Source: Acetivibrio cellulolyticus CD2 (lineage in GTDB: Bacteria > Bacillota > Clostridia > Acetivibrionales > Acetivibrionaceae). From it: a stretch of DNA of 64,000 nt. Numbering within the stretch: the stretch's first letter is position 1; the number at the start of each line of letters is the position of its first letter. A program made the translations under genes and the position numbers. The stretch covers positions 415,016 through 479,015 of the forward strand of contig NZ_JH556659.1 of the NCBI RefSeq assembly GCF_000179595.2, written 5' to 3'. Of this stretch, positions 1,717-38,414 are shown in pieces. Under the pieces are notes generated by a model, which worked only from the letters and a program-made list of their open reading frames with translations, did no database searches and was not told the origin of the DNA.

Positions 1717-3570
1717 ATGAAGTGGTTCTATAATTTGAAGGTTTCTGCAAAATTATTAATTGGTTTTTTGACTGTAGCGGTGATAGCAGCAGTTATCGGA
1801 ATTGTTGGTGTAGTTAATATCAAGAATATAGATAATGCAGATACTCAACTATATGAACAAAATGTACGTGGGTTGGAATATGCAGGAAATGCAGATGTAT
1901 ATTTTCAGAGAATAAGAGTTAACTCTTTTAAAATGATTATGTATAGTGATTCAGAAGAGCGTACGAAGTTTATGGATAAAATTAGTAGCTATTTTGAAAA
2001 AGTAGATGAGTATGCACAAAAATATGAGAAAGAGACTTTAACCGAAGGAGACAAGGCGATATTTGCTGAAACGAAGTCTGCGTGGCAAAAGTATAAAGCA
2101 GAAATTCAAAGCGCAATGGACATGATAAAAGAAGGAAAAGATGCAGAAGCCAAGGATCAGGTTATGGTTAAAACAGCAGCAACAATAGATTCAGTACAGG
2201 AAAGTTTTGATAAATTATTTATATATAATTCATCCGCAGCAAAAGAAAAGTCCGACAGTAATGAGGATGCAGCAAATTCAGCAATAACAACAATGATAGT
2301 TATCATTCTTATTGGTGTTCTTGTAGCGATATCCCTTGGGATTTTTATCTCGCAAATTATAAGCAAACCGCTTAAAAATATGACAGACGCTGCTCAAAAG
2401 CTCGCACTTGGAGATGTAAATGTAAGAATTGAAGCGACTACAAAAGATGAAATAGGTAATCTGATGCATGCATTCTCGAAAATGGTTGAAAATATCAGGG
2501 AACAGGCATATGCTACCGAGAAAATTGCAGCAGGTGACATGACAGTACAAGTCAAAGTTAAATCTGAAAATGATCTGATGGGTATAAAACTTACAGAGAT
2601 GATAAAGACAAACAATGAAGTTCTTGGCACTATAAGTTCTGCTGCTGCTCAAGTAGCTGCAGGGGCAAGACAAGTGTCTGCTTCAAGCCAGATGCTTTCG
2701 CAGGGATCTACAGAACAGGCAAGTTCTATTGAAGAGGTTACAGTTTCTATGACACAGGTTGCGGATCAAACCAAGAAGAATGCAGTAAATGCAAATCAAG
2801 CAAACGAACTTGCATTATCTGCAAAGGAAAATGCTTTAAAAGGCAATAGCCAGATGCAGGAAATGATTAAAGCAATGACTGAGATAAATGATTCGTCAGC
2901 TAGCATATCCAAGATTATAAAGGTAATAGACGATATAGCGTTCCAGACCAATATTTTGGCATTGAATGCTGCTGTAGAAGCTGCAAGAGCAGGTCAGCAT
3001 GGCAAAGGTTTTGCTGTAGTGGCTGATGAGGTTAGAAATCTAGCAGCAAGAAGTGCAAATGCTGCAAAAGAAACTACAGAACTTATTGAAAATTCAATTA
3101 AGAAGGTTGAAGCGGGAAGCCAGATTGCAAATAATACTGCCCAAGCATTAAATGAAATTGTTGATGGAGTCGCAAAAGCCGCTGATCTTGTTGGAAATAT
3201 TGCTTCAGCATCAAATGAACAGGCCTCGGGTATTGCACAGATTAATCAGGCAATTTCACAGGTTGCTCAGGTTGTACAGACCAACTCTGCTACTGCAGAA
3301 GAAAGTGCTTCAGCCAGTGAAGAATTATCAAGTCAGGCAGATTTACTAAAAGAATCAGTCAGCAGGTTCAAGCTTAAAAAGGCTAGGGGTAATATGGAAA
3401 TTGAGGGACTGGATTCAGATACTATCCGTGCTATTGAAGATATTGTTGATAAAAAGAAGTCTCATAGGAATTTCGAACAATACGATAGTTATATGGGAGA
3501 AGATGTTCCGGTTAAAAGTAATTTAAAGAACACGATATCACTTGAGGATAATAACTTCGGCAAGTATTAA
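1717..3570 (+). CDS. Methyl-accepting chemotaxis protein
   Basis: A 617-aa transmembrane chemoreceptor. Residues about 10-32 form the first membrane helix. Residues 33-185 form a periplasmic-side four-helix-bundle sensor (4HB_MCP type). Residues about 188-212 form the second membrane helix. A HAMP domain follows (about 213-265), then a long coiled-coil signalling domain. The conserved hairpin tip is seen in segments [20 protein letters not shown] and [13 protein letters not shown]. Ala/Gln/Glu-rich heptads on either side are likely methylation regions. AAGGAGG precedes the ATG. The ligand cannot be read from the sequence. It lies directly downstream of cheW and directly upstream of a cheR fragment, which suggests a former cheW-mcp-cheR unit. 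Confidence 0.95.
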
Positions 3571-3574
3571 TTTA

Positions 3575-3697
3575 TATATAGTCAAAGGGGTAAAAGCAAA
3601 ATACGGAATAGATTTAGTAGACAAGTTTTATGAATGTATGGAACCAGGAGGTTACTTGTTTATAGGGCATTCTGAATCCCTAGATCGTGATATGTGA
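3575..3697 (+). pseudogene. CheR methyltransferase, C-terminal remnant
   Basis: The frame ending in TGA at 3695-3697 encodes DLVDKFYECMEPGGYLFIGH followed by SESLDRDM. This matches the C-terminal signature of the chemoreceptor methyltransferase CheR (a rfy..LkpGGyLfiGHSESL pattern). Only about 40 codons survive and they have no start codon or ribosome-binding site. The SAM-binding core is missing, so this is a deletion remnant. It lies immediately after the chemoreceptor gene, where a cheR would be expected. Confidence 0.75.
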
Positions 3698-3705: not shown

Positions 3706-3744
3706 ATATACACAAAACATTAGATGTTTTGTGTATATTTTTTT
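3706..3744 (+). terminator. Rho-independent terminator
   Basis: A 15-bp perfect stem (3706-3720 with 3724-3738) and a 3-nt loop are followed by a T-run ending near 3744. It closes the chemotaxis transcription unit after the cheR remnant. Confidence 0.9.
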
Positions 3745-3831: not shown

Positions 3832-3860
3832 TTGACATAGATTTTGTGGAACAATAAAAT
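3832..3860 (+). promoter_or_regulatory. Sigma-A-type promoter of the Nudix/MoxR-vWA module
   Basis: TTGACA at 3832-3837 and TAAAAT at 3855-3860 are separated by 17 bp, a near-consensus vegetative promoter. It lies 48 bp upstream of the first gene of the module. The promoter of the paralogous Nudix gene at 38382 has the same -35 and the same spacing. Confidence 0.75.
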
Positions 3861-3874
3861 GTTAATAACAAGCT

Positions 3875-3890
3875 GTTAAGAACGTATAAT
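3875..3890 (+). promoter_or_regulatory. Candidate operator shared with the NAD-salvage promoter
   Basis: The segment GTTAAGAACGTATAAT lies just downstream of the -10 element. A close match, TTAACAAACGTATAAT, occupies the equivalent position in front of the paralogous regulator at 38415-38430. The shared core is AACGTATAAT preceded by TTAA. Conservation in otherwise different leaders suggests a common regulator, possibly the Nudix-wHTH protein itself. This is inference from two sites only. Confidence 0.4.
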
Positions 3891-3908
3891 TATATCAAGG
3901 AGATTAGG

Positions 3909-4814
3909 ATGGATAAAAAATATATTAAAAATAGACAGGGACTTACTGAGAAGGAGTTTCTGGGGCAATACGATGCCGGAATTTATGAAAGACCATCTGT
4001 AACAGTGGATATGCTGATCTTTACTGTAATGGATGAAGAGAAAGAAAATTATAGAAAACTACCTGAAAAGTCACTGAAACTGCTTCTGGTTAAAAGGGGT
4101 GACCATCCTTTTATTGCGGATTGGGCTTTGCCAGGAGGTTTTGTATCAGTGAACGAAAGTATTGATGAAGCTGCCATGAGGGAATTGAAGACTGAGACAA
4201 ATATAGATAATATTTATATGGAACAGCTTTATACATGGGGAGATGTAAAAAGGGATCCACGTACAAGGGTTATAAGCTGTTCATATATGGCGCTTATAGA
4301 TAGTACAACGCTTGATGTAAAGGCCGGCGACGATGCAGATGATGCTGCATGGTTTAATGTTAGCTATGATGTGATTGAGGAGAAAAAAAACGTACAGGAA
4401 AAGGGCTTTATTTTAGAAAAGTTAGTTAAAATAACTCTTTTTAACTCTTCGGATACCATTGAGGCAATCGTAAAAGTTGTGGAAACATGTGAAGGTAGTA
4501 CTACAAGAGTAAAAAGGGAGGTTACCAAATCCGAAGGACTTGCATTTGATCATGCCAAAATGATCGAGTATGCTATCGAGAGATTAAGAAATAAAATCAA
4601 CTACACGGATATAGCCTTTAACCTTATGCCGGAACTATTTACTCTATCAGAGCTTCAGCAGGTTTTTGAAATTGTCTTGGGAAAAGAGCTTCTTGCTGCC
4701 GCTTTCAGACGAAAAGTTGAGGATATGGTTATTGAAACAAACCAGTTTACTAAGGATGCAGGACATAGACCTTCAAAGTTATATAGGTTTAATCCAAATT
4801 GGCGGAATGCATAA
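3909..4814 (+). CDS. Nudix-winged-helix protein, NrtR-like regulator (copy 1)
   Basis: This 301-aa protein has a Nudix domain (about residues 30-160) and a C-terminal winged-helix region typical of NrtR-type regulators (about 220-300, ending KDAGHRPSKLYRFNPNW). NrtR proteins bind ADP-ribose-type ligands and repress NAD-metabolism genes; other members of the fold hydrolyse ADP-ribose. The Nudix box is GFVSVNESIDEAAMREL then KTETNI. The first glutamate of the metal-binding EE pair is a threonine, whereas copy 2 (38456) has KEE. Copy 1 may therefore sense rather than cleave its ligand. A strong AAGGAG precedes the ATG. It is the first gene of the methyltransferase/SWIM/MoxR/vWA block and probably controls it. 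Regulator versus hydrolase is not decided by sequence alone. Confidence 0.85.
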   Translation: MDKKYIKNRQGLTEKEFLGQYDAGIYERPSVTVDMLIFTVMDEEKENYRKLPEKSLKLLLVKRGDHPFIADWALPGGFVSVNESIDEAAMRELKTETNIDNIYMEQLYTWGDVKRDPRTRVISCSYMALIDSTTLDVKAGDDADDAAWFNVSYDVIEEKKNVQEKGFILEKLVKITLFNSSDTIEAIVKVVETCEGSTTRVKREVTKSEGLAFDHAKMIEYAIERLRNKINYTDIAFNLMPELFTLSELQQVFEIVLGKELLAAAFRRKVEDMVIETNQFTKDAGHRPSKLYRFNPNWRNA

Positions 4815-4853
4815 TAATGTTTAAAATATAAAAATGATAGAGGGTGTATAACA

Positions 4854-7406
4854 ATGAAACTTTACAGACCTGTAGGAATAAGTGAGCTCGAACTAATAAA
4901 ACAGTCAGGCATGACTAAATTTCCGCCTAGGCTTCCGGATCAGCCGATATTCTACCCTGTTCTCAATAGAAAGTATGCATGCCAGATTGCAAGGGAATGG
5001 AACACAAAAAGTGCACCTGGTTATGCGGGTTTTGTAACTGAGTTTGATGTTGATGATGATTATATTTCAAAATTTGAAGTAAAGACTGTAGGGGCGTTTG
5101 TACACACTGAATTGTGGATTCCAGCGGAAGAACTTGATGAATTTAACAGGCATATTATCGGGGAGATCAAAGTTATAGAATCGTATTATGGTGAAAACTA
5201 TAAAGGATCAAAAACAGAGATACCTGTGATGGAAAAAGCCAAGCTGGAGGAACCTGTGATAGAGGTACGTAATATAGAGATACCCAATATAGAGGTAACT
5301 AATATAGAGATAAATGAGCTGGAGGTAGCAAAATCGGAGATATATTCCTTGCAAGCTATCGAAGTACTAAAGAATGGTGACTTTAGGAGCTTAAAAAGTG
5401 AAAAATGGTTGATGTATCTAGCTTTGACGGCAGAACGGAACATCAACCTTGAGAGGCTTTATTCTCTTGAAGAGACCAGGAGCAATTATGTATTGAACTA
5501 TGTTGAGAAAACCCTTAAGCTCCTTTCTGAACTTGATCTGAACAAGTATCAAAAGCATATACTTGAGGAAACATTAAAGTGGTCTGAGGTGGCAAAATCT
5601 GGACTTAAACATCAAAGGGATCAGTGGATAAAGAATGGATACAACCTCTTTGCCCATAATATCGGATCAGCACAAATTTATCAGGAGCAATCGAATGAAG
5701 CAGATCTTGATATAAAGAGGATAGTATACGATCTGATTTTAACCCATGGCTTGATTGGTCAATACATCAGAGGAGAGATTCCTTTAATGGATAATAAACC
5801 TCTCTATCAACTTGTCATAGATAATAAACTTTCGGCCAAAGAATTGAAAGAAATATTGATGGCTCTGAATTTCTGTATCATAGCTGCAGTTGATGAATAT
5901 ATATGGCTGGATATAAAACTACAGGTTGAAGTAGTAATTGATTTTGTAATATCGGGACGGTTTGATAAGCAATATGAATTCAAAGACCGGTTAATACGTT
6001 TAAGACAGGTGTCTGCAAAAAACGGTGAAAACTTTGAAGCTGAATTTGCGAGAGTACTATCTGATTCGAGGCTAATATTGAGAATTGCCAGGTTGCTGGA
6101 TAAGGCTGATTTGTGGTATGTAGAGGCAGCAACGTATGACTTCTCCTTTGAAGAGTTTGTAAAGGTGTTTCTGATTATTGATCATGAAGTAAAGGTTGAA
6201 GAGATTAAACATATCAGTTTTGAGAGGTTCATGAAAGGTCTGTATTACCAGCATGAAGGGAAGAAGCGGGTTAATATTTATAAAAAGAGGATTATAGAAA
6301 AGTACCTTTCCGAAATCTCAATGGAGGACATATTGGAAGGCAGATTTAAAGAAAACCCCCATGTTGTGCATGAGATAGCATTCCTCGAAGATGTAGAAGA
6401 TACAATGTTTTTTAACTTCAATTTTTCTGCAGCAGGGAGCAAACTGATCGACTTTTGTATTGAAGCAGAGAAATCTGATGTGCTCTATGAAAGTGCTATT
6501 ATCATGTTGTTTGACCTGTTTGGACTTAGAAAAGATAAATATGACCGCTTCTATGAAGAGGAATCCTATCTTCAGACTATGAATCAGACAATAGATTATA
6601 AAAAAGTTATTTTAGATTATATTACAGGAAATAGTATTATTGATATAGGGCCTGGCGGCGGTGCGTTGATGGATCTCATATCGGAGAAGTTCCCGCAGAA
6701 GAAAGTATTTGGTGTAGATATTGCGCAGAATGTACTGGATAGTCTGAAAAAGAAAAAGCAGCTTGAGAATAGAAGTTGGGATGTACTTTACGGAGATGCT
6801 TTGAATTTAGGACAGTATATTGAAAAAGGGAAAGTGGATACAATCATTTTCTGTTCCATTTTGCATGAATTGTACTCCTATATTGAATTTAGCGGCAAAA
6901 AGTTTAACCACGACACGCTGGCAGCTGCATTTAAAAGTGCATTTGAAGTCTTACCGTCAGGAGGAAGGATTATCATACGTGATGGTATCATGACAGAACC
7001 CATTAGCCAGAAGAGAATAATAAGATTTTTATCTCAAGAGGGTATGGAATTCCTGATTAGATATACAAATGATTTTCAAGGAAGAGAAATCGAATATTCA
7101 GTAGTCGGGCAAAATGAAGTGCTTATGCCTGTAAACGATGCAATGGAGTTTTTATATACATATACCTGGGGAGAAAAGTCCTATGTTCATGAAGTTAATG
7201 AGCAGTTTGGATACTTCACTCCGAGCGGCTTCAGGGATTTCATAACAAAGGTGCTTGGCCCAATGGCAAGAATAGTAGAATTCAAACATTTTCTGCAAGA
7301 AGGTTATACGATTGCATTATCGCAGAAAATTGAGTTTTTCGATGAAAAAAGAAATCCTGTAAGGCTTCCGGATAGTACGTGTATTGTTGTAATTGAAAAA
7401 GGTTGA
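4854..7406 (+). CDS. Fusion: ADP-ribosylation/crystallin-J1-type N-domain plus SAM methyltransferase
   Basis: An 850-aa multidomain protein. Residues 1-115 (beginning MKLYRPVGISELELIKQSG, then FPPRLPDQPIFYPVLNRKYA and ELWIPAEELDEFNRHI) match, from memory, short bacterial proteins labelled 'ADP-ribosylation/crystallin J1'. That label is historical and the activity is unproven. Residues about 120-165 are a repetitive acidic linker of short IEV/NIE units. Residues about 165-590 are helical and unrecognised. Residues about 590-780 are a class I SAM-dependent methyltransferase with motif I IIDIGPGGGAL, an acidic VFGVDIAQNVLDSL strand and the FCSILHELYSY segment. No membrane segments are seen. It lies 39 bp after the Nudix gene and 18 bp before the SWIM gene, so it is clearly in the operon. 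The methyl acceptor is unknown. Confidence 0.75.
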   Translation: MKLYRPVGISELELIKQSGMTKFPPRLPDQPIFYPVLNRKYACQIAREWNTKSAPGYAGFVTEFDVDDDYISKFEVKTVGAFVHTELWIPAEELDEFNRHIIGEIKVIESYYGENYKGSKTEIPVMEKAKLEEPVIEVRNIEIPNIEVTNIEINELEVAKSEIYSLQAIEVLKNGDFRSLKSEKWLMYLALTAERNINLERLYSLEETRSNYVLNYVEKTLKLLSELDLNKYQKHILEETLKWSEVAKSGLKHQRDQWIKNGYNLFAHNIGSAQIYQEQSNEADLDIKRIVYDLILTHGLIGQYIRGEIPLMDNKPLYQLVIDNKLSAKELKEILMALNFCIIAAVDEYIWLDIKLQVEVVIDFVISGRFDKQYEFKDRLIRLRQVSAKNGENFEAEFARVLSDSRLILRIARLLDKADLWYVEAATYDFSFEEFVKVFLIIDHEVKVEEIKHISFERFMKGLYYQHEGKKRVNIYKKRIIEKYLSEISMEDILEGRFKENPHVVHEIAFLEDVEDTMFFNFNFSAAGSKLIDFCIEAEKSDVLYESAIIMLFDLFGLRKDKYDRFYEEESYLQTMNQTIDYKKVILDYITGNSIIDIGPGGGALMDLISEKFPQKKVFGVDIAQNVLDSLKKKKQLENRSWDVLYGDALNLGQYIEKGKVDTIIFCSILHELYSYIEFSGKKFNHDTLAAAFKSAFEVLPSGGRIIIRDGIMTEPISQKRIIRFLSQEGMEFLIRYTNDFQGREIEYSVVGQNEVLMPVNDAMEFLYTYTWGEKSYVHEVNEQFGYFTPSGFRDFITKVLGPMARIVEFKHFLQEGYTIALSQKIEFFDEKRNPVRLPDSTCIVVIEKG

Positions 7407-7424
7407 GGTAAGGGGGAGATTACT

Positions 7425-8294
7425 TTGAAAATTACTGAAGAATTCATAAATTCAATAGCTCCAAATCAGAATGCTGTTACAAATGGTTTAGGGCTTGTTA
7501 AAAAGAACAGCTTTGCAAAGCTGAACATTTCAAATGACGAGACAGTTTTGTTTGGTGAGTGTAAAGGAAGCGGAGCAAGTAATTATATCACATCTGCTGA
7601 TTTTATAAATCAGGACACTCCTGTTTTCCGCTGTACTTGCCCTAGCAGGCAGTTTCCGTGTAAACATTCAATAGGACTTTTGTTTGCTTACATAAATGGA
7701 AAGAAATTTGAAGCAGCAGAAATTCCGGCAGATATATTAGAAAAGCGTGAAAAGATTGAGCAGAGAGAGGAAAAGAAGAAAGCTGAGGGTGAAAAAGGAC
7801 CTAAAAAGATCAATAAATCGGCTTTGAAAAAGAAGATTGCTGCCCAGATTGAAGGCTTAGAGCTGCTTGAAAAAATCGTAGGGAATTTTGTTCAGGCTGG
7901 ACTTGGAACAATTAATGCCAAGACGATCCAAATCATGAATGAACAGGTCAAACAGTTAGGCAACTATTACCTTTCCGGACCTCAAACCGTATTGAAGGAT
8001 TTCTTGCTTCTGTTTGAACATGGTAATGACCGTGAGGAAATCTATTCACAGGCAGTTGATTTGCTTATTATGATGAATTCATTGTGCAGGAGGGGTAAGG
8101 AGTACTTGAATAAAAGGATTGAAGACCCTGAACTTGAGTCAGAACAAGATAGTATGATTGCTGAATTATTAGGTCATGCATGGCAGCTATCAGAGCTTAA
8201 GACACTTGGAAGGGTTCAAAACGATGTTGGATTGATACAGTTGTGTTTCAACTGTTTTGCCAGTGAAGGAAGAAATGAGTATGTGGATTATTGA
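7425..8294 (+). CDS. SWIM zinc-finger protein (N-terminal part of a split gene?)
   Basis: A 289-aa protein with a SWIM zinc finger: C70, C72, C79 and H81 in FRCTCPSRQFPCKH. SWIM fingers bind nucleic acid or protein. Related proteins of about 450 aa occur next to MoxR and vWA genes in many bacteria. Residues about 105-140 are Lys/Glu-rich and probably a coiled coil; the rest is helical. The TTG start at 7425 is chosen because AAGGGGGA lies 8 bp upstream. The frame ends at TGA 8292-8294, yet the next gene continues in the same frame only four codons later. This copy may therefore be the amino-terminal half of a SWIM protein interrupted by one stop codon. Confidence 0.8.
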   Translation: MKITEEFINSIAPNQNAVTNGLGLVKKNSFAKLNISNDETVLFGECKGSGASNYITSADFINQDTPVFRCTCPSRQFPCKHSIGLLFAYINGKKFEAAEIPADILEKREKIEQREEKKKAEGEKGPKKINKSALKKKIAAQIEGLELLEKIVGNFVQAGLGTINAKTIQIMNEQVKQLGNYYLSGPQTVLKDFLLLFEHGNDREEIYSQAVDLLIMMNSLCRRGKEYLNKRIEDPELESEQDSMIAELLGHAWQLSELKTLGRVQNDVGLIQLCFNCFASEGRNEYVDY

Positions 8295-8306
8295 ATATGG
8301 ATTAAC

Positions 8307-8846
8307 TTGAAAACGGGCGAAATACAGGAAACAATAAATTACAGGCCTTTTAAAGCTGTAAAATATATACGTGAGGATGATTCCTTCTATTCGGTTGCAC
8401 AGGTGAAGGAACTTTTTATATACCCGGGAGAGTTAAATCCAAGAATCAGGTGGGAAAACATGGAGATTAGAGAGGTTGCTTCAAAGGATTACAAGCTAAT
8501 AAAATCATTTGCTAAAACCTCATATACTGAAGTTATAAAGACTGTAAAAAATCAGATTAAAAATCCTCTTTCAGACAAAAATCCTCTGGCGTTATTAAGC
8601 TATGCAAGGATTGGACAGGTGGAAGGGCTATTTGTTGCAGAAGATGAAAAGGGGCAGAGAGTGCTGCTCGAAGACAATTACCTTTGTTTTGAGCCTCATA
8701 ATACATATATGTTGGAACTTGTTGATGAGAGTGTACTTAACAACAATTGCATGCTTGTGAGATTTCACCACAACCCGGATACCGGCAAACTTAGGGCTCA
8801 ACCGTTAAGCCTGATTACTGATGACAGGATAATACGCTTGATTTGA
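8307..8846 (+). CDS. Conserved protein of the SWIM/MoxR module (C-terminal half of the SWIM protein?)
   Basis: The 179-aa product has no motif I can name with certainty. Its C-terminus (TGKLRAQPLSLITDDRIIRL) resembles in pattern the C-termini of full-length SWIM-family proteins. The only available start is TTG at 8307, which has no clear ribosome-binding site. The reading frame is identical to that of the SWIM gene, separated by TGA (8292-8294) and four codons. Either translation restarts here by coupling, or the two are one gene broken by a nonsense codon. The joint length of about 470 residues would suit the family. It is followed after 41 bp by the HEAT-like gene. Confidence 0.55.
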   Translation: MKTGEIQETINYRPFKAVKYIREDDSFYSVAQVKELFIYPGELNPRIRWENMEIREVASKDYKLIKSFAKTSYTEVIKTVKNQIKNPLSDKNPLALLSYARIGQVEGLFVAEDEKGQRVLLEDNYLCFEPHNTYMLELVDESVLNNNCMLVRFHHNPDTGKLRAQPLSLITDDRIIRLI

Positions 8847-8887
8847 GTTCAAAACTATTTGAAGTATAGGAACGAGGAGTTGATATA

Positions 8888-10699
8888 ATGAGTATGGCTT
8901 TAATTTTTGAAGCACATGATGAAGTGAGAAAGCTTTTAATTGCAGGAAGTGAAATGGCAGTTGATAATTCCAAACTGAAAAAGATACTACCGGGCATGAG
9001 AAAATCGGGTGAGAGTGTTCCTGTTTTTGCAAAGTTAGCTGATGCAATCGAAGTTGCTATAAATCCCGGTACAGGAAAGTCACAGGAAAAACTTCTTGAG
9101 TTGGCAAATTTAATAAATGCAGTTGTATATACGCAGGGTGAGACTGGGGTTCAGGGCAAAATAGAAAAAGTTGATACGGCAGGATTGGATTTTTTAACGG
9201 AGGTTTCTTACAGAAAGCTTAACCCGGTGATAAGTGCATTAACAACAAAGGGCTCCGGCAGGCTTGAAGTAATAAGGCAGTTTTTTGCTGAAAGCTTTTA
9301 TAAAGATTTAAGACTTGTTGTTCCTCTTATATCTGCACTTGGAGATGGTTATTCTGAGATTGCCGATTTGGCGTATGAGGTTCTGAAGAAATACGGTGAT
9401 TCAATCATTCATGTTTTGAAAAAGAGTTTGAATATGAATGGCAGTAAGGGAGATGCAAGGATTATTGAACTTATTTCGGACTTGAACGGCAAAAAAGAAA
9501 AGGAGTTTTATCTTGATGCAATTGAAAAAGGATCTATAGAGGTCAAAGTTAGTTCAATTAAGGTCCTGAAAGATTTCCCGGAATGTGAAGATTTGTTGAT
9601 AGAGCTATCAAATGATAAGAAGAAGGAAGTTCGTGAGGCAGCATTTTATGCTCTTGGGAAAATCAAATCAGGAAGTGCTGTTAAGTGCTTGTTTAATGCA
9701 TTCAGGGGAAAGGACAGAGATATTGTCTCTGAGCCAATCAGAGAAAACGATTCGCAGGAAATTGTAAAAAGCCTTTTGGAAGAGGCTGAAAAAAGTATGG
9801 AATTGATTATGAGTTCTGATACCGGAAATAAATCCGAGAATGAAAAATTGGAAGTTGAGTATTTTGTTACGGTTTTAGATTGTATGCTTGGGAAAAGGGA
9901 TAATGGCATTTTTGAGTTTCTTAAAAAATGTATTGACCTCTCGAAAAAATTGACAAAGTTCAAGATTAACAATGCAGATGATACTATAATTCGTACATCA
10001 GCAAGGAATATTCTGGCGTTTGAAAGTTATGAGGCTTATGATTTCCTAGTATCAACCTTGGGGAAATATAATAATTCAATTATAGAGTTTTCCTTAGAAG
10101 CTGCAATAAGGTCAAAATCATCTGAATATGTATTTGAAAACTATTCACCTCTGATGGAAAATGGTAAAAAGTCTTTTGAGCGTAGTGAAATTATAAAGGT
10201 TATGTCATTTTACTGCGATTTTGATGAAGCGTACCGGATTCAGGATTATTATTACTCAAACATAAGGAACTACTATATAAATACAATTAATAAATATAAT
10301 ATAAGATGGGATAAACGCTGGGCAAAGTTACTTTTGAGTCAGGATGAAATTTCGTTGGGTTGCAAGCTTATTTCAAGGGGTGATATGAATTCATGTTTAA
10401 TTTTGCTTGAAAAACTGAAAGCCCATATGAAATTTGGCGACAGATACTTAAACTATATAATATTGGGTCTGTTTCAGGCTGGATATGAGAAAGTCAGGGA
10501 AGAGATTCTCAATGTTTTGGAGTTTAATTTCAATAACAATAAAAATTATATGAGATACTATTTGAATGACTTTGCGGGTGTAATGAAATTATTGCCAGCG
10601 AGTGATGTTCAATATATAGAGGAATTTGCAGCAAAGTTTAATAACGAAGGAACAGAAGTGCTAGCAGACGTTACATGGTATCTGAAAAATAAAAAATAA
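8888..10699 (+). CDS. HEAT-repeat-like protein
   Basis: A 603-aa, probably cytoplasmic, all-helical protein. Helical-pair repeats of HEAT/PBS-lyase type can be seen, for example around residues 220-265 (KKKEVREAAFYALGKIKSGS) and around 130-180. Such solenoids usually act as protein-binding scaffolds. No enzymatic motif is seen. A good ribosome-binding site (GAGGAG) precedes the ATG. The gene is followed after 18 bp by the MoxR ATPase, so it may be an adaptor or substrate for that ATPase. The exact family is not recognised. Confidence 0.7.
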   Translation: MSMALIFEAHDEVRKLLIAGSEMAVDNSKLKKILPGMRKSGESVPVFAKLADAIEVAINPGTGKSQEKLLELANLINAVVYTQGETGVQGKIEKVDTAGLDFLTEVSYRKLNPVISALTTKGSGRLEVIRQFFAESFYKDLRLVVPLISALGDGYSEIADLAYEVLKKYGDSIIHVLKKSLNMNGSKGDARIIELISDLNGKKEKEFYLDAIEKGSIEVKVSSIKVLKDFPECEDLLIELSNDKKKEVREAAFYALGKIKSGSAVKCLFNAFRGKDRDIVSEPIRENDSQEIVKSLLEEAEKSMELIMSSDTGNKSENEKLEVEYFVTVLDCMLGKRDNGIFEFLKKCIDLSKKLTKFKINNADDTIIRTSARNILAFESYEAYDFLVSTLGKYNNSIIEFSLEAAIRSKSSEYVFENYSPLMENGKKSFERSEIIKVMSFYCDFDEAYRIQDYYYSNIRNYYINTINKYNIRWDKRWAKLLLSQDEISLGCKLISRGDMNSCLILLEKLKAHMKFGDRYLNYIILGLFQAGYEKVREEILNVLEFNFNNNKNYMRYYLNDFAGVMKLLPASDVQYIEEFAAKFNNEGTEVLADVTWYLKNKK

Positions 10700-10717
10700 A
10701 GTGGGGGAGAATGGAAA

Positions 10718-11809
10718 ATGGCTGAATCTAATGAAGTATTGAGGTTGCCGGCGGAGCAAATGTATGCTCATGAAATAGAGGCGTTGATTTCTGCAGAAAC
10801 TGAGCGTATACCGACCGGATGGAAAATGTCGCCACGTTCAGTGCTGACTTATATAACCGGGGGAAAAGTTAAAGGAGTAGAGATTACTCCAAAGTACATA
10901 GGAAATAAAAGATTGGTTGAAATAGCTATATCTACACTTATAACTGATAGGGCGCTGCTCCTGATTGGAGAACCAGGAACCGCGAAGTCCTGGCTTTCAG
11001 AACATCTTACAGCTGCTATACATGGTGATTCTACAAAGGTTGTCCAGGGGACAGCAGGTACAACGGAAGAGCAAATTCGCTATTCATGGAATTATGCAAT
11101 GCTCCTTGCTAATGGTCCATCAAAGGAAGCATTGGTTAAAAGTCCAATATTTAGAGCTATGGAGCTTGGTGGAATTGCGAGATTTGAAGAAATATCCCGA
11201 TGTGCTTCGGAAGTCCAGGATGCATTGATTTCAATTCTTTCCGAAAAGAGAATTTCCATTCCTGAATTAGGATTTGAACTTCCAGCGGCGAAAGGCTTTT
11301 CAATAATAGCTACTGCAAATACACGGGACAGGGGTGTAAACGATATGTCCTCCGCTTTGAAGCGAAGATTCAACATTATTGTGCTGCCTACTCCGGGGGA
11401 TATTAATACGGAAATTGAAATTGTAAGAAAACGTGTAAAAGAACTGGCAGTAAACTTAGACCTTCAAGCGTCTCTTCCTTCTGAAGATGCAATTGAGAAG
11501 GTTGTTACAATTTTCCGTGAATTGAGAAACGGTATGACTTTAGACAGCAAAGAAAAGATTAAGCCACCGAGTGGCGTAATATCAACAGCAGAGGCTATAT
11601 CTCTACTTGCAAACAGTATGGCTCTTGCAGCAAGTTTTGGAGCAGGAAAGATTACAAATGAGGACATTGCTGCGGGGCTTCAGGGAGCAGTTGTGAAGGA
11701 TGAGGAAAAGGATAAACTGGTTTGGAAGGAATATATAGATAACGTATTAAAAAAACGTGGTTCCGAGTGGCGTGATTTGTACAATGCTTGTAAGGAGATG
11801 AATGTGTGA
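10718..11809 (+). CDS. MoxR-family AAA+ ATPase
   Basis: A 363-aa single-domain AAA+ ATPase. Walker A is GEPGTAKS (residues 84-91). The Walker B region is IARFEEISR (153-161), with Glu where Asp is usual. Sensor 1 lies in FSIIATANTRDRG, and an arginine-finger region in ALKRRFN follows. A C-terminal lid helix bundle ends the protein. MoxR ATPases act as chaperones or remodellers, typically with a vWA partner that carries a MIDAS site. Such a partner is encoded two genes downstream. GGGGGAG precedes the ATG, and the stop codon overlaps the start of the next gene. Substrates are unknown. Confidence 0.92.
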   Translation: MAESNEVLRLPAEQMYAHEIEALISAETERIPTGWKMSPRSVLTYITGGKVKGVEITPKYIGNKRLVEIAISTLITDRALLLIGEPGTAKSWLSEHLTAAIHGDSTKVVQGTAGTTEEQIRYSWNYAMLLANGPSKEALVKSPIFRAMELGGIARFEEISRCASEVQDALISILSEKRISIPELGFELPAAKGFSIIATANTRDRGVNDMSSALKRRFNIIVLPTPGDINTEIEIVRKRVKELAVNLDLQASLPSEDAIEKVVTIFRELRNGMTLDSKEKIKPPSGVISTAEAISLLANSMALAASFGAGKITNEDIAAGLQGAVVKDEEKDKLVWKEYIDNVLKKRGSEWRDLYNACKEMNV

Positions 11810-14190
11810 AGCATACAGAAAAGTCACCACATTTTTTTGGAGTCAGGCATTTATCACCCCAAGGAGCGCATCAATTGCTTAAATTTCTTGATGAAATAAT
11901 GCCCACGGCTGTACTTGTCGAAGGGTTATCCGATGCAAATCCGCAAATTGAGCATTTTACAGGCAAAGCTACCAAGCCTCCTGTTGCAATATTGGCATAC
12001 ACAGAGGAATTGCCTGTAAGGACACTTTTGTATCCTTTTGCAGAGTACTCTCCAGAATATCAGGCTTTCGTATGGTCAAAAAAGAATAACGCCCATGCAG
12101 AATTTATTGATCTGCCTTCCGATGTTTTTATAAATCTGGAGTATTCAAATAAAGATAGAGACAAAACTGACGGTACCGTCAAAAGCGGAGATGGCGAAAC
12201 CATAGAAAGTAAAGAAGAAGCTGATTTAAATAAAATTGAAAAGGGATCAGATAGCGAAAGTGAAGCAGTATATGCCACTACGATAAAAAACAAATCTGTT
12301 TATGAAAAATGGGCTCTAATGGCAGGAGATGATGACCATGATACATATTGGGAACGGAATTTTGAACATAATTTAAATAAAGATGCATACCGCCTTGCAG
12401 TTTTTGAGTTTGGGAAGAGTATAAGGCAGTTATCCCATGACAACAGATTTGAGGAAGCCAAAAACCTTGTCCGGGAAGCTTATATGAGGAAAAGAATTCA
12501 GGATACTATCAAATCCGGTCATAAACCGGAAAAGGTTGTAGTAGTAACTGGCGCATATCATTCGACGGCACTTGGCGGGGATTTACCACCTATGACCGAT
12601 GAAGAATTTTCAAGCCTTCCAAGGGTTAAGACAAAGCTTACCCTAATGCCATATTCATACTACAGGCTGTCATCAAGGTCGGGTTACGGCGCAGGCAACA
12701 CTGCACCCGCTTATTACGGCATGATGTGGGAATGCTTGAGAGAAAAGGACTTTGAGAAACTTCCATCTGAATATTTTTCGAGTATGGTATCATATTTAAG
12801 AGAAAGTGGAACACACAGGTCAGTGGCGGAGGTCATTGAAGCTGTGAGACTTTCGAATACACTTGCAGCGATGCATGGAGGCAGTGCACCAACACTTAAG
12901 GACTTAAGAGATGCTGCGGTAATTTGCCTTGGATATGGTGAGTTGACAGTGGTTGCCGAGGCTATGGCACATGTCGAAGTCGGTACAGCCATAGGAAGTC
13001 TTCCGGAAGGGGTAAGCAGGACTTCTATTCAGGATGATTTTTACAGGGAGCTTAAAAGGTTGAAATTGGAAAAGTATAAGTCCCCTGTTGCGATGGATCT
13101 GGAGCTTGATTTACGTGAAAACAGAAGGGTTAAATCCGAAGAGGCGGCATTTCTGGATTTGAACAGGTCTTGCTTCCTTCACAGACTAAAAGCTCTAAAC
13201 ATAAGCTTTCAGAAGTATAAGCCAAAAAGTCAGGATTCGGCAACTTGGGCAGAATCCTGGATTCTTAAGTGGACTCCTGAAGCAGAAATCGAACTTGTTG
13301 AATCTGTATTAAGGGGAGAAACTGTAGAGCTTGCAGTTGCTTTTGCCTTTAAGGAACGGTTGGAAAAGTGTGAGAAAATCGAAGAAGCTGCATTGGTAAT
13401 TCGTCAAGCTTGCGAATGTGGAATGATGGAGTCTATGGAGTATGCAAGAGAGGTCCTGCAGAGACTTGCTGTTGATACAGGTGCATTTAATGAGGCAGCA
13501 TTTGCAGCATTTCAGTTATCCCAGGTCATCAGTTATGGGGATATAAGGAAGTTTGACTCCTCAAAGCTTGTGCCACTGCTTGAACAGTTGTTTTTAAGGT
13601 CAACACTCCTTATGCTTGATGCTGCAAACTGCGACAATACGGCAGCTGCTGGGGTAGCGGAATCTATTAATATTTTGAATACAATAGCTCTGGAATACTA
13701 TAATATAGTGGATGAGGAACTATGGATCAGAAAGCTTACCGAATTGTCCGAAAGGGATGACAAAAATCCAAAACTTTCAGGCTTTGCTTGTTCGATACTT
13801 TTAGAGAGGAACCTTATGGACAGTGAAAAGCTTTCACAGGAAGTAGCGAGAAGATTGTCTCCTGGGATTGATGCAGATCTTGGAGCAGGGTGGTTTGAAG
13901 GCTTATCTATGAGAAACAGGTATGTTTTGCTTGCAAGAACAAGCCTGTGGAATCAGATTTCGGAGTATGTATCACAACTAGACAATGAACAGTTTAAGAG
14001 GGCCTTGGTTTTTCTTAGAAGAGCATTTGCTGATTTTAATACAGCCGAAAAGCGGGGTATATGTGAGAAACTTGGAGAGGTATGGGGCGTAGATAGTGAG
14101 GATGCCAGTGACCTTTTAAGCAGGGAGCTCTCAGAAGAGGAAGAGCAGAGTATATCGGAATTAAACGACTTTGATTTTGGAGATATATAA
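11806..14190 (+). CDS. DUF5682-family protein with EreA/ChaN-like N-terminus
   Basis: A 794-aa protein read from GTG 11806, overlapping the MoxR stop by 4 bp, with AAGGAG upstream. The N-terminus contains FFGVRHLSPQGAHQLL (residues 10-25) and a following VLVEGLSDANPQIEHF. A later segment reads VVVTGAYHSTALGG. A GxRH...P(D/T)xVLVEG pattern is characteristic of DUF5682 proteins, and I see a resemblance to the EreA/ChaN/TraB hydrolase superfamily, which carries a conserved early His. The acidic stretch at residues 120-155 looks disordered. The C-terminal half is helical. These proteins typically sit between a MoxR ATPase gene and a vWA gene. Catalytic activity is not shown. Confidence 0.75.
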   Translation: MKHTEKSPHFFGVRHLSPQGAHQLLKFLDEIMPTAVLVEGLSDANPQIEHFTGKATKPPVAILAYTEELPVRTLLYPFAEYSPEYQAFVWSKKNNAHAEFIDLPSDVFINLEYSNKDRDKTDGTVKSGDGETIESKEEADLNKIEKGSDSESEAVYATTIKNKSVYEKWALMAGDDDHDTYWERNFEHNLNKDAYRLAVFEFGKSIRQLSHDNRFEEAKNLVREAYMRKRIQDTIKSGHKPEKVVVVTGAYHSTALGGDLPPMTDEEFSSLPRVKTKLTLMPYSYYRLSSRSGYGAGNTAPAYYGMMWECLREKDFEKLPSEYFSSMVSYLRESGTHRSVAEVIEAVRLSNTLAAMHGGSAPTLKDLRDAAVICLGYGELTVVAEAMAHVEVGTAIGSLPEGVSRTSIQDDFYRELKRLKLEKYKSPVAMDLELDLRENRRVKSEEAAFLDLNRSCFLHRLKALNISFQKYKPKSQDSATWAESWILKWTPEAEIELVESVLRGETVELAVAFAFKERLEKCEKIEEAALVIRQACECGMMESMEYAREVLQRLAVDTGAFNEAAFAAFQLSQVISYGDIRKFDSSKLVPLLEQLFLRSTLLMLDAANCDNTAAAGVAESINILNTIALEYYNIVDEELWIRKLTELSERDDKNPKLSGFACSILLERNLMDSEKLSQEVARRLSPGIDADLGAGWFEGLSMRNRYVLLARTSLWNQISEYVSQLDNEQFKRALVFLRRAFADFNTAEKRGICEKLGEVWGVDSEDASDLLSRELSEEEEQSISELNDFDFGDI

Positions 14191-14192
14191 TT

Positions 14193-15398
14193 ATGATGGA
14201 TATGGAACAGGTAAAACGATGGAGATTGATTCTTGGAGAAGCCGGCGAAGAAATGCTTAATTCGTTTTCAGCATCCGATATTGGGCTTAGTGAAGACGAA
14301 ATTGCTATGGATGAGGCACTTGCAGCTATATATGATAAATCTACTGAGGGTGATGAAGGAGCTGCAAGGGGAAATACGGGTTCATCGAAGAGCTCGGCAG
14401 GTAAAGGATCTTCAGCCCCAAAGCTTGCAAAGTGGCTTGCTGATATCCGTACATACTTTACAGAAGATGTAGTTTCGGTCATACAAACGGATGCTATTGA
14501 ACGCAAAGGTTTGAGACAGTTGCTGTTCGAACCGGAAGTGCTCAGGAATGTACAACCGGATATAGACCTGGTTGCAACCTTTATGTCACTCAAAGGGAAA
14601 ATACCAGAAAAGACAAAGGAAACAGCAAGGCAGCTTGTAAGAATGGTAGTTGAGGATATCAATAAGAGAATGGAGAACGATTTGAGAAAAGCTATAACAG
14701 GTGCTTTGAACAAGAAAAATCATTCTCCAATTGCAAGTGCGGTGAGTATTGACTGGAAATATACGATAAACCATAACCTGAAGAATTACAACAAGGAATA
14801 TAAAAAACTCATTCCTGAACGGTTCTTCTTTTTTGACAGGGCCAGGAAAATGAACAACTGGAATGTAATTTTGGATATGGATCAGAGCGGGTCCATGGCT
14901 GATTCAATTATTTATGGATCTATAGCCGGATCAATATTTGCGAGCATGGCATCGCTGAATACCAAAATTGTGGCATTTGATACAGCAGTTGTTGATTTAT
15001 CGGAGGAGTATGGCAATGATCCGGTCGATATGCTTTTTGGAATACAGCTTGGTGGAGGGACGGATATCAATAAGTCGGTAGCTTATTGCCAGCAATTTAT
15101 TACTGACCCTTCAAAAACATTATTTATACTTCTTTCCGACCTTTACGAAGGTGGAAATCAGGCTTCACTCATAAAAAGAATGGAAGAAATGCATGAATCG
15201 GGTGTAAAGGTCATTTGTCTGCTTGCATTGTCAGACAGGGGAGTACCAAGTTATGATGAGGGGCTTGCACGCAGATTATCAAAAATAGGTATTCCATGCT
15301 TTGCATGTACGCCAACTCTTCTTCCTGAACTTTTGGAGGGTGCATTGAAAGGACATGATCTAAATGCACTTGCAGAGAGAATGAAGAATACTAAGTAA
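14193..15398 (+). CDS. vWA (von Willebrand factor A) domain protein with MIDAS motif
   Basis: A 401-aa protein with an N-terminal helical region (about 1-215, with an Ser/Gly-rich linker at 55-75) and a vWA domain (about 222-375). The MIDAS metal site DxSxS is D230-Q-S-G-S234 in LDMDQSGSMADS, with later metal ligands in GGGTDI and LSDLYEGG. No membrane helix is seen, so it is probably cytoplasmic. vWA proteins partner with MoxR ATPases and present substrates. It is the last gene of the block; after it there is a 95-bp gap before an unrelated tautomerase gene. Confidence 0.9.
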   Translation: MMDMEQVKRWRLILGEAGEEMLNSFSASDIGLSEDEIAMDEALAAIYDKSTEGDEGAARGNTGSSKSSAGKGSSAPKLAKWLADIRTYFTEDVVSVIQTDAIERKGLRQLLFEPEVLRNVQPDIDLVATFMSLKGKIPEKTKETARQLVRMVVEDINKRMENDLRKAITGALNKKNHSPIASAVSIDWKYTINHNLKNYNKEYKKLIPERFFFFDRARKMNNWNVILDMDQSGSMADSIIYGSIAGSIFASMASLNTKIVAFDTAVVDLSEEYGNDPVDMLFGIQLGGGTDINKSVAYCQQFITDPSKTLFILLSDLYEGGNQASLIKRMEEMHESGVKVICLLALSDRGVPSYDEGLARRLSKIGIPCFACTPTLLPELLEGALKGHDLNALAERMKNTK

Positions 15399-15968: not shown

Positions 15969-16243
15969 AACCCTTACAGGTATAGGGGGTTATAGGTACG
16001 ATAGTGAGACTGGACTGTATTATTTGCAGAGTAGATATTATAATCCAGACTGGGGCAGGTTTATTAATGCGGATGCATTGATTACCGGCAAAAGGAAAGC
16101 CAAATTCAACAGATAAACTTTATAATCCTGATGGTAGTGTAAAGCAAGAGAGATGGTATGGTCCTGATGGAAGGGTCGTTTTTTATTTAAAAAAATTTTT
16201 GAAACCCTTGATATATAGGCAATTTATTAAACTAGAAGTGTAA
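15969..16243 (+). pseudogene. rhs core C-terminus remnant with toxin-tip fragment
   Basis: A degenerate fragment of an Rhs/YD-repeat polymorphic toxin. One frame gives NPYRYRG, then after an extra G in the run 15985-15989 a second frame gives YRYDSETGLYYLQSRYYNPD and WGRFINADALI, the conserved Rhs-associated core end. After a further shift near 16095 a third frame gives NPDGSVKQERWYGPDGRVV, which looks like the beginning of a variable toxin tip, ending at TAA 16241-16243. No upstream Rhs repeats are present. It marks the left edge of an accessory island with several immunity-like genes. Confidence 0.85.
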
Positions 16244-16282
16244 AGTAGTTTACACTAACAGGCAGACCGTGAGGTGATTAAT

Positions 16283-16696
16283 ATGAAAAAGAAACATATT
16301 GTTTTTATTAGTTGTAGCTTAATAGTCTTAACTGTTGTATTGTTGTATAATATGTTTTGTCAAAATGTAAATGTTGATTTTACAGAGAAGATAACATTTA
16401 AATATGACTATTTCGAAAAGGAAATTAACGTTCAGATAACAGATGAAAATGATAAAAGTCTACTTGTTTCAATGTGCAAAGGGATGGCAATTTCAGATAG
16501 TCCTTCTTGTGGGTTTGGAACAGCAGAAATAATATTTGAAGGAAAGAACAAAAAAATATCAATATATCCAGCTTGTGATGGATGTGACTTGATGAGAGTT
16601 AATAATACAGAAAAATATTTTTCGATTGGAAAAGAAAATAGGAAAAAACTTGTTGAGATTCTTGAAAAATATGGTGCGAAATTTCCGTGTATTTAA
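16283..16696 (+). CDS. Small membrane-anchored protein, possible immunity protein
   Basis: A 137-aa protein with one N-terminal hydrophobic segment (about residues 6-25) and a soluble remainder containing Cys pairs (SPSCGFGT, PACDGCDLM and a C-terminal FPCI). The ATG at 16283 is chosen because GAGGTGATT lies just upstream. I do not recognise the family. It lies 40 bp after an rhs toxin remnant, the usual position for a cognate immunity gene, so an immunity role is possible by context only. Confidence 0.65.
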   Translation: MKKKHIVFISCSLIVLTVVLLYNMFCQNVNVDFTEKITFKYDYFEKEINVQITDENDKSLLVSMCKGMAISDSPSCGFGTAEIIFEGKNKKISIYPACDGCDLMRVNNTEKYFSIGKENRKKLVEILEKYGAKFPCI

Positions 16697-17149
16697 CATT
16701 AGGATAGACCATACGTGGTCTATTCTGGCTACGCGGGTCAGGGAACATCACATATCATTTAGCAGTTATTCCGAAGTTTAAGGCGGAAAAATACCTCTGT
16801 AGACTTAAACCATAGAGGTACACTTGGTTCAAAAACGCACCTTAAATTTCGAAATTGCGTGATGAACGAAGCCGCATAACTAGAAGCACATATTATGGGG
16901 ATTTAATTCTCCGAAGACTCCTTTGAATTAATACTTAATAAGTAACTTACTTAAATACTGGTAGCGTATTATGGCCAAAAACCTTTATCACCCTAAAAAT
17001 GGGCATATGAAACTAGGTCCATGTATGAGTCTTTTTCAGAATTATGAAGTTAGCAATTGTCTATTCCAGTAAAGCTCAGCTTTTTCAAAACGCCTGTTTA
17101 CATATCATTGCTGCATTACCATAAACAAAAGTTATAGGAGGTAGAATTT
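16697..17149. other. Intergenic with small hairpins, no gene recognised
   Basis: This 450-bp gap inside the rhs island has no convincing coding frame. It contains an 8-bp-stem hairpin with a TACG loop (16704-16723) and a second inverted repeat (TACCTCT with AGAGGTA, about 16789-16820). Neither is followed by a T-run. It may be decayed toxin or immunity sequence. AGGAGG near its end is the ribosome-binding site of the next gene. Confidence 0.4.
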
Positions 17150-17608
17150 ATGGATATGTATACTGCATTTTCTATGATATTGGATTCAATAAAAGATAAC
17201 ACTGGATATGAAGATAGTATATTTGATGAATTCATAATAGGATTTGAGGACGAATATAAAAAGTGTAAGGACATTCTTTCTAAGAAGTTTTCAGCATTCT
17301 TAGAGAAGAATGAATTTTTACATGACTCCGAAATAGTAGGAGTATCAGTTAAAAGCTACGTCTCAAATCAAAAGTACTTATGTGATATTGTTATGCAAAT
17401 TAAGACTTCTCAGAGAAAAGAAGTGCGCACAATTATATATAAGAAAGCTAGTAAGTTTACTGTTGAGAGGTATAAAGAAAGTGATTATAGCTGGACATGG
17501 GGGTATGGATATTTTAAAAAGCTTGAAGATAATTACATTGAACAGGGCATTATTTGCTTCCCAGGTTCACTTATAAAAATTAAATGTAAAAAGATTGTAC
17601 TCGGATAA
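17150..17608 (+). CDS. Uncharacterised protein of the rhs island, immunity-like
   Basis: A 152-aa cytoplasmic protein with no signal peptide, rich in Lys and Glu, with Trp/Tyr-rich SWTWGYGYFKKLEDNY near the C-terminus. TAGGAGG precedes the ATG at a proper distance. The family is not recognised. Size, isolation and position among rhs fragments fit an orphan immunity gene. A 7-bp GC-rich stem follows its stop. Confidence 0.6.
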   Translation: MDMYTAFSMILDSIKDNTGYEDSIFDEFIIGFEDEYKKCKDILSKKFSAFLEKNEFLHDSEIVGVSVKSYVSNQKYLCDIVMQIKTSQRKEVRTIIYKKASKFTVERYKESDYSWTWGYGYFKKLEDNYIEQGIICFPGSLIKIKCKKIVLG

Positions 17609-17621
17609 GGGAAATTAAAAA

Positions 17622-17650: not shown

Positions 17651-17681
17651 CACCATTTTAAGAATAGAGGAGCAATCGAAA

Positions 17682-18002: not shown

Positions 18003-18080
18003 ATAATCTTGGTTAGCCAATTTAATATGGTATAATAAGAGGGGATAAATAGTTTACTAAATCGTTATTGGAGTGTGATT

Positions 18081-38410: not shown

Positions 38411-38414
38411 GATA

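Follow-up and report, generated by a model that had tools for sequence, protein, structure and literature searches.

A MoxR-DUF5682-vWA gene set behind a predicted NrtR-type operator in Acetivibrio cellulolyticus CD2

We analyzed a 64-kb stretch of the Acetivibrio cellulolyticus CD2 genome (hereafter the window, in whose coordinates positions are given) that contains an operon at 3909-15398. This operon begins with a gene for an NrtR-like regulator (P0001), continues with a methyltransferase whose N-terminal domain we call CJ1 (P0002), and ends with a core of genes for SWIM, HEAT-repeat, MoxR, DUF5682 and vWA proteins. Genomes and loci used for comparison carry G and L numbers, the present genome being G000. 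The features of the operon and its promoter region are as follows.

3706-3738, + strand: terminator-like hairpin between the chemotaxis genes and the promoter (15-pair stem, loop of 3, T-rich tail)
3832-3860, + strand: sigma-70-type promoter, TTGACA-17-TAAAAT (11 of 12 consensus matches)
3859-3884, + strand: predicted NrtR-type operator overlapping the -10 (matrix score 8.1 bits; no mismatch in the genome pattern search)
3909-4814, + strand: P0001, NrtR-like Nudix-winged-helix regulator (PF21906, 73.8 bits; PF00293, 51.4 bits)
4854-7406, + strand: P0002, CJ1 domain (residues 1 to about 113, from the AlphaFold2 fold) and PRK06922-type methyltransferase (residues 164-849; NF005379, 847 bits)
7425-8294, + strand: SWIM zinc-finger protein, N part (PF04434), ending at an in-frame TGA at 8292-8294
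8307-8846, + strand: SWIM protein, C part, in the frame of the N part (alignment through the stop; no Pfam match)
8888-10699, + strand: HEAT-repeat protein (PF13646, HEAT_2, 35.6 bits)
10718-11809, + strand: MoxR-type AAA+ ATPase, YehL-like (AAA_5, 133 bits)
11806-14190, + strand: DUF5682 protein, YehM-like (PF18934, 468.6 bits)
14193-15398, + strand: VWA_CoxE-type vWA protein, YehP-like, with a metal ion-dependent adhesion site (MIDAS) (PF05762, 154.6 bits)

The eight open reading frames (ORFs) are separated by gaps of -4 to +41 bp, and no terminator-like site was listed on the + strand between 3738 and 15398 except one at 4333, within the Nudix gene. The promoter ties with a site at 15912 as the top of the promoter scan. 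Promoter-like sites as a class are not above chance (42 found versus 44.4 expected), but the one at 3832-3860 overlaps a predicted NrtR-type operator. An earlier note on this DNA had described eight tight co-directional genes behind one near-consensus promoter, and the positions, gaps and promoter agree with it. Its calls of Nudix-winged-helix, methyltransferase, SWIM, HEAT, MoxR, DUF5682 and vWA families are likewise matched by Pfam and NCBIfam models and by the MIDAS signature DQSGS at residues 230-234 of the vWA protein. Upstream of the operon lie a CheW gene (1066-1659) and a gene for a methyl-accepting chemotaxis protein (MCP; 1717-3570). A tautomerase gene at 15494 may share the transcript, since the scan found no + strand terminator separating it from the vWA gene.

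P0001 combines a Nudix domain with the NrtR winged helix, both Pfam matches being above their cut-offs (21.1 for PF00293 and 27 for PF21906), and falls under the NCBIfam cut-off for the NrtR equivalog (181 versus 400 bits). A paralogue with 69% identity, NrtR2, is found 34 kb downstream in an NAD-salvage operon.

38409-38434, + strand: NrtR operator of the NAD-salvage operon, our reference site (23.8 bits, highest of the 64 kb)
38456-39370, + strand: NrtR2
39407-41575, + strand: pncA (39407-40081) and pncB (40133-41575), as ORFs

We take these two ORFs to encode a nicotinamidase-like and a nicotinate phosphoribosyltransferase-like protein, respectively, and the order NrtR-pncA-pncB recurs in relatives. 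In the tree of the family, P0001 belongs to a clade of four NrtRs (100/100) that is separate from the NrtR2 clade. The other members head a Nudix-Macro-DUF4291-CJ1-methyltransferase operon (L098), a Nudix-NADAR-PARG-ARH-KptA-DUF7638-184 aa-CJ1 operon (L099), and an operon with an unknown gene and a HAD-like gene (L111). The Nudix box of P0001 (RELKTETNI) lacks one Glu that NrtR2 retains. Published NrtR regulators are described as having impaired Nudix boxes, and several are released from DNA by ADP-ribose (PMC4666351, PMC6800001), the reported exceptions in the family being one member that responds to NAD and one subgroup that responds to arabinose (PMC6800001, PMC4666351).

NrtR promoters of other genomes carry two direct half-sites over the -10, and an operator matrix was built from six of them (L100, L102, L104, L106, L113 and L114; four beside pncAB in the stretch examined). 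With this matrix, the site at 3859 is the second-best of the 64 kb, has the same geometry to the -10 as the reference site at 38409, and has a P of 0.0045 for 250 bp of upstream sequence. We then made a pattern that covers the window's two operator sites and searched it in the 6.16 Mb of the genome. At up to one mismatch it has only four matches, which precede P0001, NrtR2-pncA-pncB, a NADAR-PARG-KptA operon (at a distance of about 73 bp; G000:C3:661559; L145) and a Band_7/SPFH gene (at about 51 bp; G000:C9:883542; L146), the last followed by an unknown gene. All four overlap the end of a TTGACA-17-TA(A/T)AAT promoter alike. The pattern having been derived from the two sites in the window, only the other two count as independent evidence. 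At three mismatches there are three further matches, while the reversed-pattern control has four in all.

In 12 relatives the pattern has 37 matches at up to two mismatches versus 7 for the reversed control; some of the 37 are one site counted on both strands, and the genes behind them were examined in part. They include sites before pncAB (G180, G112, G291 and G323), before PARG-PnuC-like-NadR-like-ARH (G320), before Macro-PnuC-like-NadR-like (G312) and before Macro-KptA (G325). Two sites with two mismatches (G086:C63 and G222:C1:4796751) have no NAD gene among the references used, and at a third site (G325:C72) the sole findings are a kinase-like gene and an isochorismatase match below threshold. 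From these sequence patterns, control of the operon by NAD or ADP-ribose is a well-supported prediction for this genome. The operator, the NrtR tree and the operons of relatives thus uphold, for this genome, the earlier placement of the core under a regulator of an ADP-ribose-sensing family together with an ADP-ribose-related domain and a methyltransferase. As a separate observation, Band_7 also adjoins the PRK06922 methyltransferase in L098 and L100.

The methyltransferase part of P0002 matches Methyltransf_12 in Pfam and PRK06922/NF005379 in NCBIfam. Residues 1-123, which the earlier note had named a crystallin-J1-type domain, have no Pfam match up to an E-value of 0.1, including PF03747 (ADP_ribosyl_GH), and the AlphaFold2 model of CJ1, built from 13 sequences (pLDDT 89.2, pTM 0.83), points instead to a fold like that of ADP-ribosyltransferases (ARTs). 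The best 20 Foldseek rows comprise Tpt1/KptA, the RhsP2 toxin domain, CC0527, a plant PARP domain and ParT, and the rows from VIA-align are almost all of the ART fold (top 7rt7, Z 8.8 over 90 residues at 2.0 Å; Tpt1 8tg3, Z 7.9). The best Foldseek E-value is 9.3e-3 and none is at or below 0.001, so that the model suggests a distant match to the ART fold, with a uniform list. There is no ADP-ribosylglycohydrolase (ARG) among the rows shown, which excludes nothing, and the CJ1 profile searched directly against PDB gave nothing significant. R5, Y34, Y41 and E86, candidates for catalytic residues, are invariant in 13/13 CJ1 sequences.

In a draw of 291 genomes from the host's class, CJ1 was found in five (two of them as short matches), and only G000 has both CJ1 and DUF5682. 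In relatives, CJ1 and PRK06922 methyltransferase families lie among ADP-ribose-processing genes. In addition to L098 and L099, this is seen in L100 (NrtR-pncA-pncB-Macro-radical SAM/Nudix-methyltransferase) and in L109 (pncA-pncB-ARH-KptA-methyltransferase, where the contig begins). On a Deinococcus plasmid NADAR adjoins CJ1. Three CJ1 loci on Streptomyces plasmids have no NAD gene nearby by annotation. Among sequences of a viral collection, 12 CJ1 loci matched and the neighbours of seven were examined: PARG immediately precedes CJ1 in L123 and L126 and, with one ORF between them, in L124, on contigs of 481, 267 and 268 kb, respectively. Three side observations concern these loci. The L100 gene at 4500-6515 encodes a radical-SAM/HemN-like protein fused to a Nudix domain. 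Deinococcus taeanensis plasmid p_TS293_3 (L041, L134) carries CJ1 by NADAR at a distance of about 109 kb from a core cluster. The CJ1-PARG sets of L123, L124 and L126, with Ro60/TROVE-vWA in some and CJ1 fused to GIY-YIG in L124, are a possible phage ADP-ribose/ribonucleoprotein (RNP) set.

The SWIM-HEAT-MoxR-DUF5682-vWA core is of an already known kind, the E. coli yehL-M-P-Q type. For our neighborhood census, 25 further DUF5682 loci were searched by tblastn with the proteins of the window; the stretches of L005, L008, L009, L032 and L044 were short on one side. MoxR and vWA genes adjoin DUF5682 at 24 of the 25, L005 being cut by a contig end. The earlier statement that SWIM, MoxR, DUF5682 and vWA co-occur is upheld. 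The window has the same adjacency of MoxR, DUF5682 and vWA that a YehL-M-P-Q-type cluster requires. SWIM-HEAT-MoxR-DUF5682-vWA is complete in nine loci, with HEAT between SWIM and MoxR, and L007 (Planctomycetota) has MoxR and vWA, but the 8.7 kb that precede its MoxR gene match neither SWIM nor HEAT. The core was seen in loci of eight phyla, and the order MoxR-DUF5682-vWA is kept from E. coli to Fusobacterium. E. coli K-12 has the order yehI-yehK-yehL-yehM-yehP-yehQ, its YehL is 40% identical to the window MoxR over 361 aa, and homologous DUF5682 and vWA genes follow. It differs from the window in having SWIM (YehQ) after vWA rather than before MoxR, in having the DUF4132 protein YehI where the window has HEAT, and in having no Nudix regulator or CJ1-methyltransferase. 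The clusters on Deinococcus, Rhizobium and Hymenobacter plasmids have SWIM first and the same order (SWIM-DUF5691-MoxR-DUF5682-vWA; MoxR 56% identical to the Deinococcus one), but have DUF5691 in the place of HEAT, fused to SWIM in Hymenobacter. With hhalign, HEAT and DUF5691 could not be joined (E 0.056), nor could SWIM and YehQ (best E 0.0043, probability 8%, in the C-terminal half). Our literature search found no title or abstract that assigns a function to the MoxR-DUF5682-vWA-SWIM set; it did not meet the term DUF5682, and co-mentions of YehL/M/P/Q were, by title, genome papers. As further observations, G320 has both core types in one genome, SWIM-HEAT-MoxR-DUF5682-vWA and the yehI type (L030, L031). 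A phage origin of the core was set aside: the sole match in a phage collection, L044 (MT835988.1, MoxR-DUF5682-vWA), is an unverified fecal scaffold labeled ‘Bacteriophage sp.’ and is probably bacterial, given its neighbors MgsA, DUF5717 and DUF5716.

The ‘SWIM protein in two parts’ of the earlier note is one gene, since both ORFs share a frame that is cut by the TGA at 8292-8294. SWIM is a single ORF in all nine aligned relatives (L004, L006, L009, L028, L029, L030, L033, L034 and L040), with an invariant glycine at the position of the TGA. The zinc ligands CTC..CKH are retained in the N part. The TGA could be a stop that is read through, a sequencing error or a nonsense mutation of recent origin. 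Selenocysteine was considered and dropped, due to the weak fold of the surrounding 57 nt (z -0.94), the lack of any Rfam match at gathering score within the window, and the glycine in relatives. The core's SWIM gene is likewise two overlapping ORFs in a more distant case, at L045:5102-6510 on a plasmid of Rhizobium sp. Kim5.

For the DUF5682 protein, residues R14, H15, E39, D102, R223, E224, M227, G249 and H252 are invariant in 23/23 sequences. TraB/Tiki proteins are marked by two motifs ending in H, an E after strand 2 and R..M before the second motif, and the layout RH...VLIEG...REAYM..I...VVVTGxxH of DUF5682 recalls, to our eye, that superfamily. An hhalign comparison of the N-terminal part with TraB/GumN gave an E-value of 1.5e-4 with a probability of only 51%, while the controls gave 0.025 (CJ1), 0.81 (DUF5682 C part) and 0.16 (CJ1 versus TraB). 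The comparison is centered on the GxxH motif: its TraB set consisted of 25 fetched rows minus seven without this motif as written (L165, L167, L168, L169, L170, L173 and L174), plus E. coli YbaP. The global mode of hhalign also aligns the second TraB motif, but forces an end-to-end fit and is not independent support. In Pfam the protein has no PF01963 match and scores 13.5 bits with ChaN, below the cut-off of 27.7; a direct search of its sequence against PDB gave nothing significant, and an AlphaFold2 model from seven sequences was too poor for use (pLDDT 47). The N-terminal part is thus a weakly supported candidate for a TraB/Tiki-type hydrolase.

We see about an even chance that two known modules have been joined here into an ADP-ribose-inducible operon, which would link an ADP-ribose-related protein to a MoxR-vWA remodeling machine. 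P0001 would sit on the predicted operator over the -10 of its own promoter and, by analogy with the biochemistry of the NrtR family, would be released when NAD is consumed and ADP-ribose, one of the products into which NAD breaks down, rises. The operon would then yield the ART-like domain fused to a methyltransferase and a YehL-M-P-Q-type set, consisting of a MoxR AAA+ ring, the vWA protein as its co-factor, and the SWIM, HEAT and DUF5682 proteins. The NorQ ring is described as plugged by the vWA domain of NorD, and MoxR-vWA pairs as remodeling their targets (PMC9976466); the pair encoded here may act in the same way on a protein or RNP. SWIM would be a nucleic-acid- or metal-binding protein, HEAT a scaffold and DUF5682 the weakly supported hydrolase. 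As the other operons with good operators are for NAD salvage, NADAR-PARG-KptA and SPFH, the likely job would be clean-up or remodeling of ADP-ribosylated or damaged protein or RNP under NAD/ADP-ribose stress.

The operon resembles known systems in part. Like NrtR regulators, P0001 has Nudix and NrtR_WHD domains, an impaired Nudix box and an operator over the -10 as at pncAB promoters, but it belongs to a sister clade that heads ADP-ribose-processing operons and, here, the MoxR-vWA core. Iyer et al. (2022, PMC9503650) predict operons in which a repressor of the Nudix- or WYL-HTH kind accompanies an ARG and vWA-type or other chaperones; ADP-ribose set free would switch them on, and ADP-ribosylated proteins would be their targets. 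Shared with these operons are a Nudix-HTH regulator, a vWA protein and ADP-ribose enzymes in one regulon, predicted in our case. In contrast, the window's eight genes are without an ARG (no PF03747 match in Pfam), the full MoxR-vWA-SWIM-DUF5682 core stands in the chaperone's place, and the ADP-ribose hydrolases are in another operon. The window's operon may therefore be a variant of this ADP-ribose-switch logic, with the induction and the target of the machine suggested by analogy. NorQ-NorD and RavA-ViaA share the remodeling principle of an AAA+ ring with a vWA protein, but their partner genes are unlike those of the window's core.

Several observations weigh against the joined operon being a working unit. 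The score of the 3859 site lies within the null for 64 kb (maxima with a mean of 6.3, a standard deviation of 3.6 and a highest value of 18.6; a rough null of first-order Markov sequence), and its weight thus rests on its position and the genome-wide pattern count. Ten core loci were scanned with the operator matrix at a threshold of 8 bits. L004, L006, L009, L028, L030, L031, L033 and L034 have no site, and at L029 and L040 sites of 12.5 and 12.6 bits, above the window's 8.1, lie about 2 kb before SWIM and not at the SWIM promoter, which shows that a score of such size can arise by chance. Within the stretches examined, P0001-like genes and the methyltransferase are each found at 0 of the 25 other DUF5682 loci, and CJ1 is absent at 24, its single occurrence being L004. 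The neighborhood check therefore does not sustain the conserved integrated system of the earlier note. Although the window and L004 are sisters in the core tree (100/100), the window's CJ1 falls among those of its genus (87/90), and a grouping of the window and L004 for CJ1 is rejected (approximately unbiased test, p 0.0101). PARG was not seen beside CJ1 at four of the seven viral-collection loci. The SWIM gene is in the right place for a YehL-M-P-Q-type cluster but is interrupted by the in-frame TGA, and a genome search found no second copy. Also at 0/25 of the other DUF5682 loci are pncA, pncB, NADAR, PARG, KptA, Macro, ARH and Band_7, and the annotated NUDIX gene 5' of the core in Hymenobacter (L046) is without similarity to P0001. 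Four of the six core-bearing genomes among relatives carry CJ1 or the methyltransferase (G000, G312, G320 and G325); we do not count this as evidence, because outside G000 these genes do not adjoin the core, and all four genomes are of one order.

The rival that survives best, which we regard as possible though doubtful, is that the core was inserted by chance behind the CJ1-methyltransferase gene of an NrtR-controlled operon and is a co-transcribed, functionally unlinked and decaying passenger. The whole linkage occurs only in this genome among the loci examined, the core is patchy (DUF5682 in 3/291 genomes of the host's class and 6/148 among relatives), and the TGA falls on a glycine conserved in all the aligned relatives. 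The same-genus genomes G086 and G222, in which DUF5682 was not found, have genes for proteins of 412 and 258 aa, an extra gene in G222, a 435-aa gene, CJ1-methyltransferase (G086) or CJ1 (G222), a CheW-like gene and an MCP gene; NrtR-pncA-pncB lies further on, and the only P0001-like gene is the NrtR2 orthologue. The present genome has the same three upstream genes, others, CheW (75% identical to that of G222), MCP and then P0001-CJ1-methyltransferase-core. From this difference in order, the block appears to have been rearranged or inserted after MCP. Against a passenger, the core genes compared with those of L004 have a ratio of non-synonymous to synonymous differences (pN/pS) of 0.07-0.30 (pS 0.72-0.81, near saturation) and the SWIM halves are about equally constrained (0.219 for the N part and 0.188 for the C part), so that any decay is at most recent. 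CJ1 also stands directly before SWIM in L004, where 34 bp separate the end of a stand-alone CJ1 gene from SWIM, compared with an 18-bp gap after CJ1-methyltransferase in the window. The differing CJ1 and core trees mean that this adjacency was made twice, or was kept through replacement of the CJ1 gene, and suggest a pairing made or kept repeatedly. Just after MCP, at 3571-3690, there is by eye a fragment like the CheR C-terminus, a likely rearrangement scar.

Somewhat less probable than a passenger is a role in RNA-end repair or RNP quality control, in which KptA, NADAR, PARG and CJ1-methyltransferase would process NAD-dependent RNA 2'-phosphate and RNA ADP-ribose while SWIM-MoxR-vWA remodels a damaged RNP or tRNA-enzyme complex. 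KptA is present in operator-bearing operons both here (NADAR-PARG-KptA) and in G325 (Macro-KptA), the solved folds nearest to CJ1 include KptA/Tpt1, L123 and L124 have a Ro60/TROVE-vWA gene upstream of CJ1 in the company of PARG, and KptA is treated as RNA repair in PMC9503650. On the other hand, the Pfam matches of the eight genes include no RNA ligase, polynucleotide kinase or cyclic phosphodiesterase, and the methyltransferase matches Hen1 with 13.1 bits, far under the cut-off of 340.

An anti-invader system, in which attack by a phage NADase or ADP-ribosyltransferase raises ADP-ribose and the operon answers, is unlikely: ARG-centered host systems with Nudix-HTH and vWA chaperones are predicted to act against viral ADP-ribosylation (PMC9503650), and MoxR-vWA pairs are described as the core of predicted ternary conflict systems (Kaur et al. 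2020, PMC7159879), but the eight genes have no ARG match and none over the Pfam cut-off to the third components VMAP, iSTAND, FtsH or beta-propeller (no VMAP model was sought by name; bpMoxR scores 25.9 bits, under 27), the PADLOC matches are weak only (best E 8.1e-5), and the predicted regulon, with NAD salvage and RNA 2'-phosphate processing genes, fits a housekeeping stress. The main text of Kaur et al. is without the words SWIM, DUF5682 and yeh. Also unlike the pattern of defense islands, yehM is found in 5284 of 5426 E. coli genomes, in 5166 of them with at least 80% of its length covered. Judged on sequence, the earlier interpretation is partly supported overall: ADP-ribose control is predicted here, a conserved integrated system is not borne out, and the anti-invader role is without direct evidence.

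Under the joined-operon reading, the link to an ADP-ribose-type regulator offers a testable clue to when the MoxR-DUF5682-vWA-SWIM machine is used, and turns into a testable question whether that machine acts in NAD/ADP-ribose stress. Together with the ART-like fold, the neighbors of CJ1 in some genomes (PARG, Ro60, KptA and NADAR) suggest that it is a family new to the ADP-ribose field. A bolder version, which we hold to be a shade less probable than the RNA-repair role, is that CJ1 is an unrecognized ART-fold enzyme family of NAD-dependent RNA or protein repair, and that the NrtR regulon (NAD salvage, NADAR-PARG-KptA, SPFH and CJ1-methyltransferase) is an ADP-ribose-triggered damage response that has recruited YehL-M-P-Q as an ATP-driven remodeler. 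If this were true, the E. coli machine would extract or repair ADP-ribosylated RNP or protein, with DUF5682 as a hydrolase.

Downstream of the operon, 15980-19527 looks by eye like the end of an RHS-repeat-like core followed by small ORFs, possibly a worn polymorphic-toxin/immunity region.

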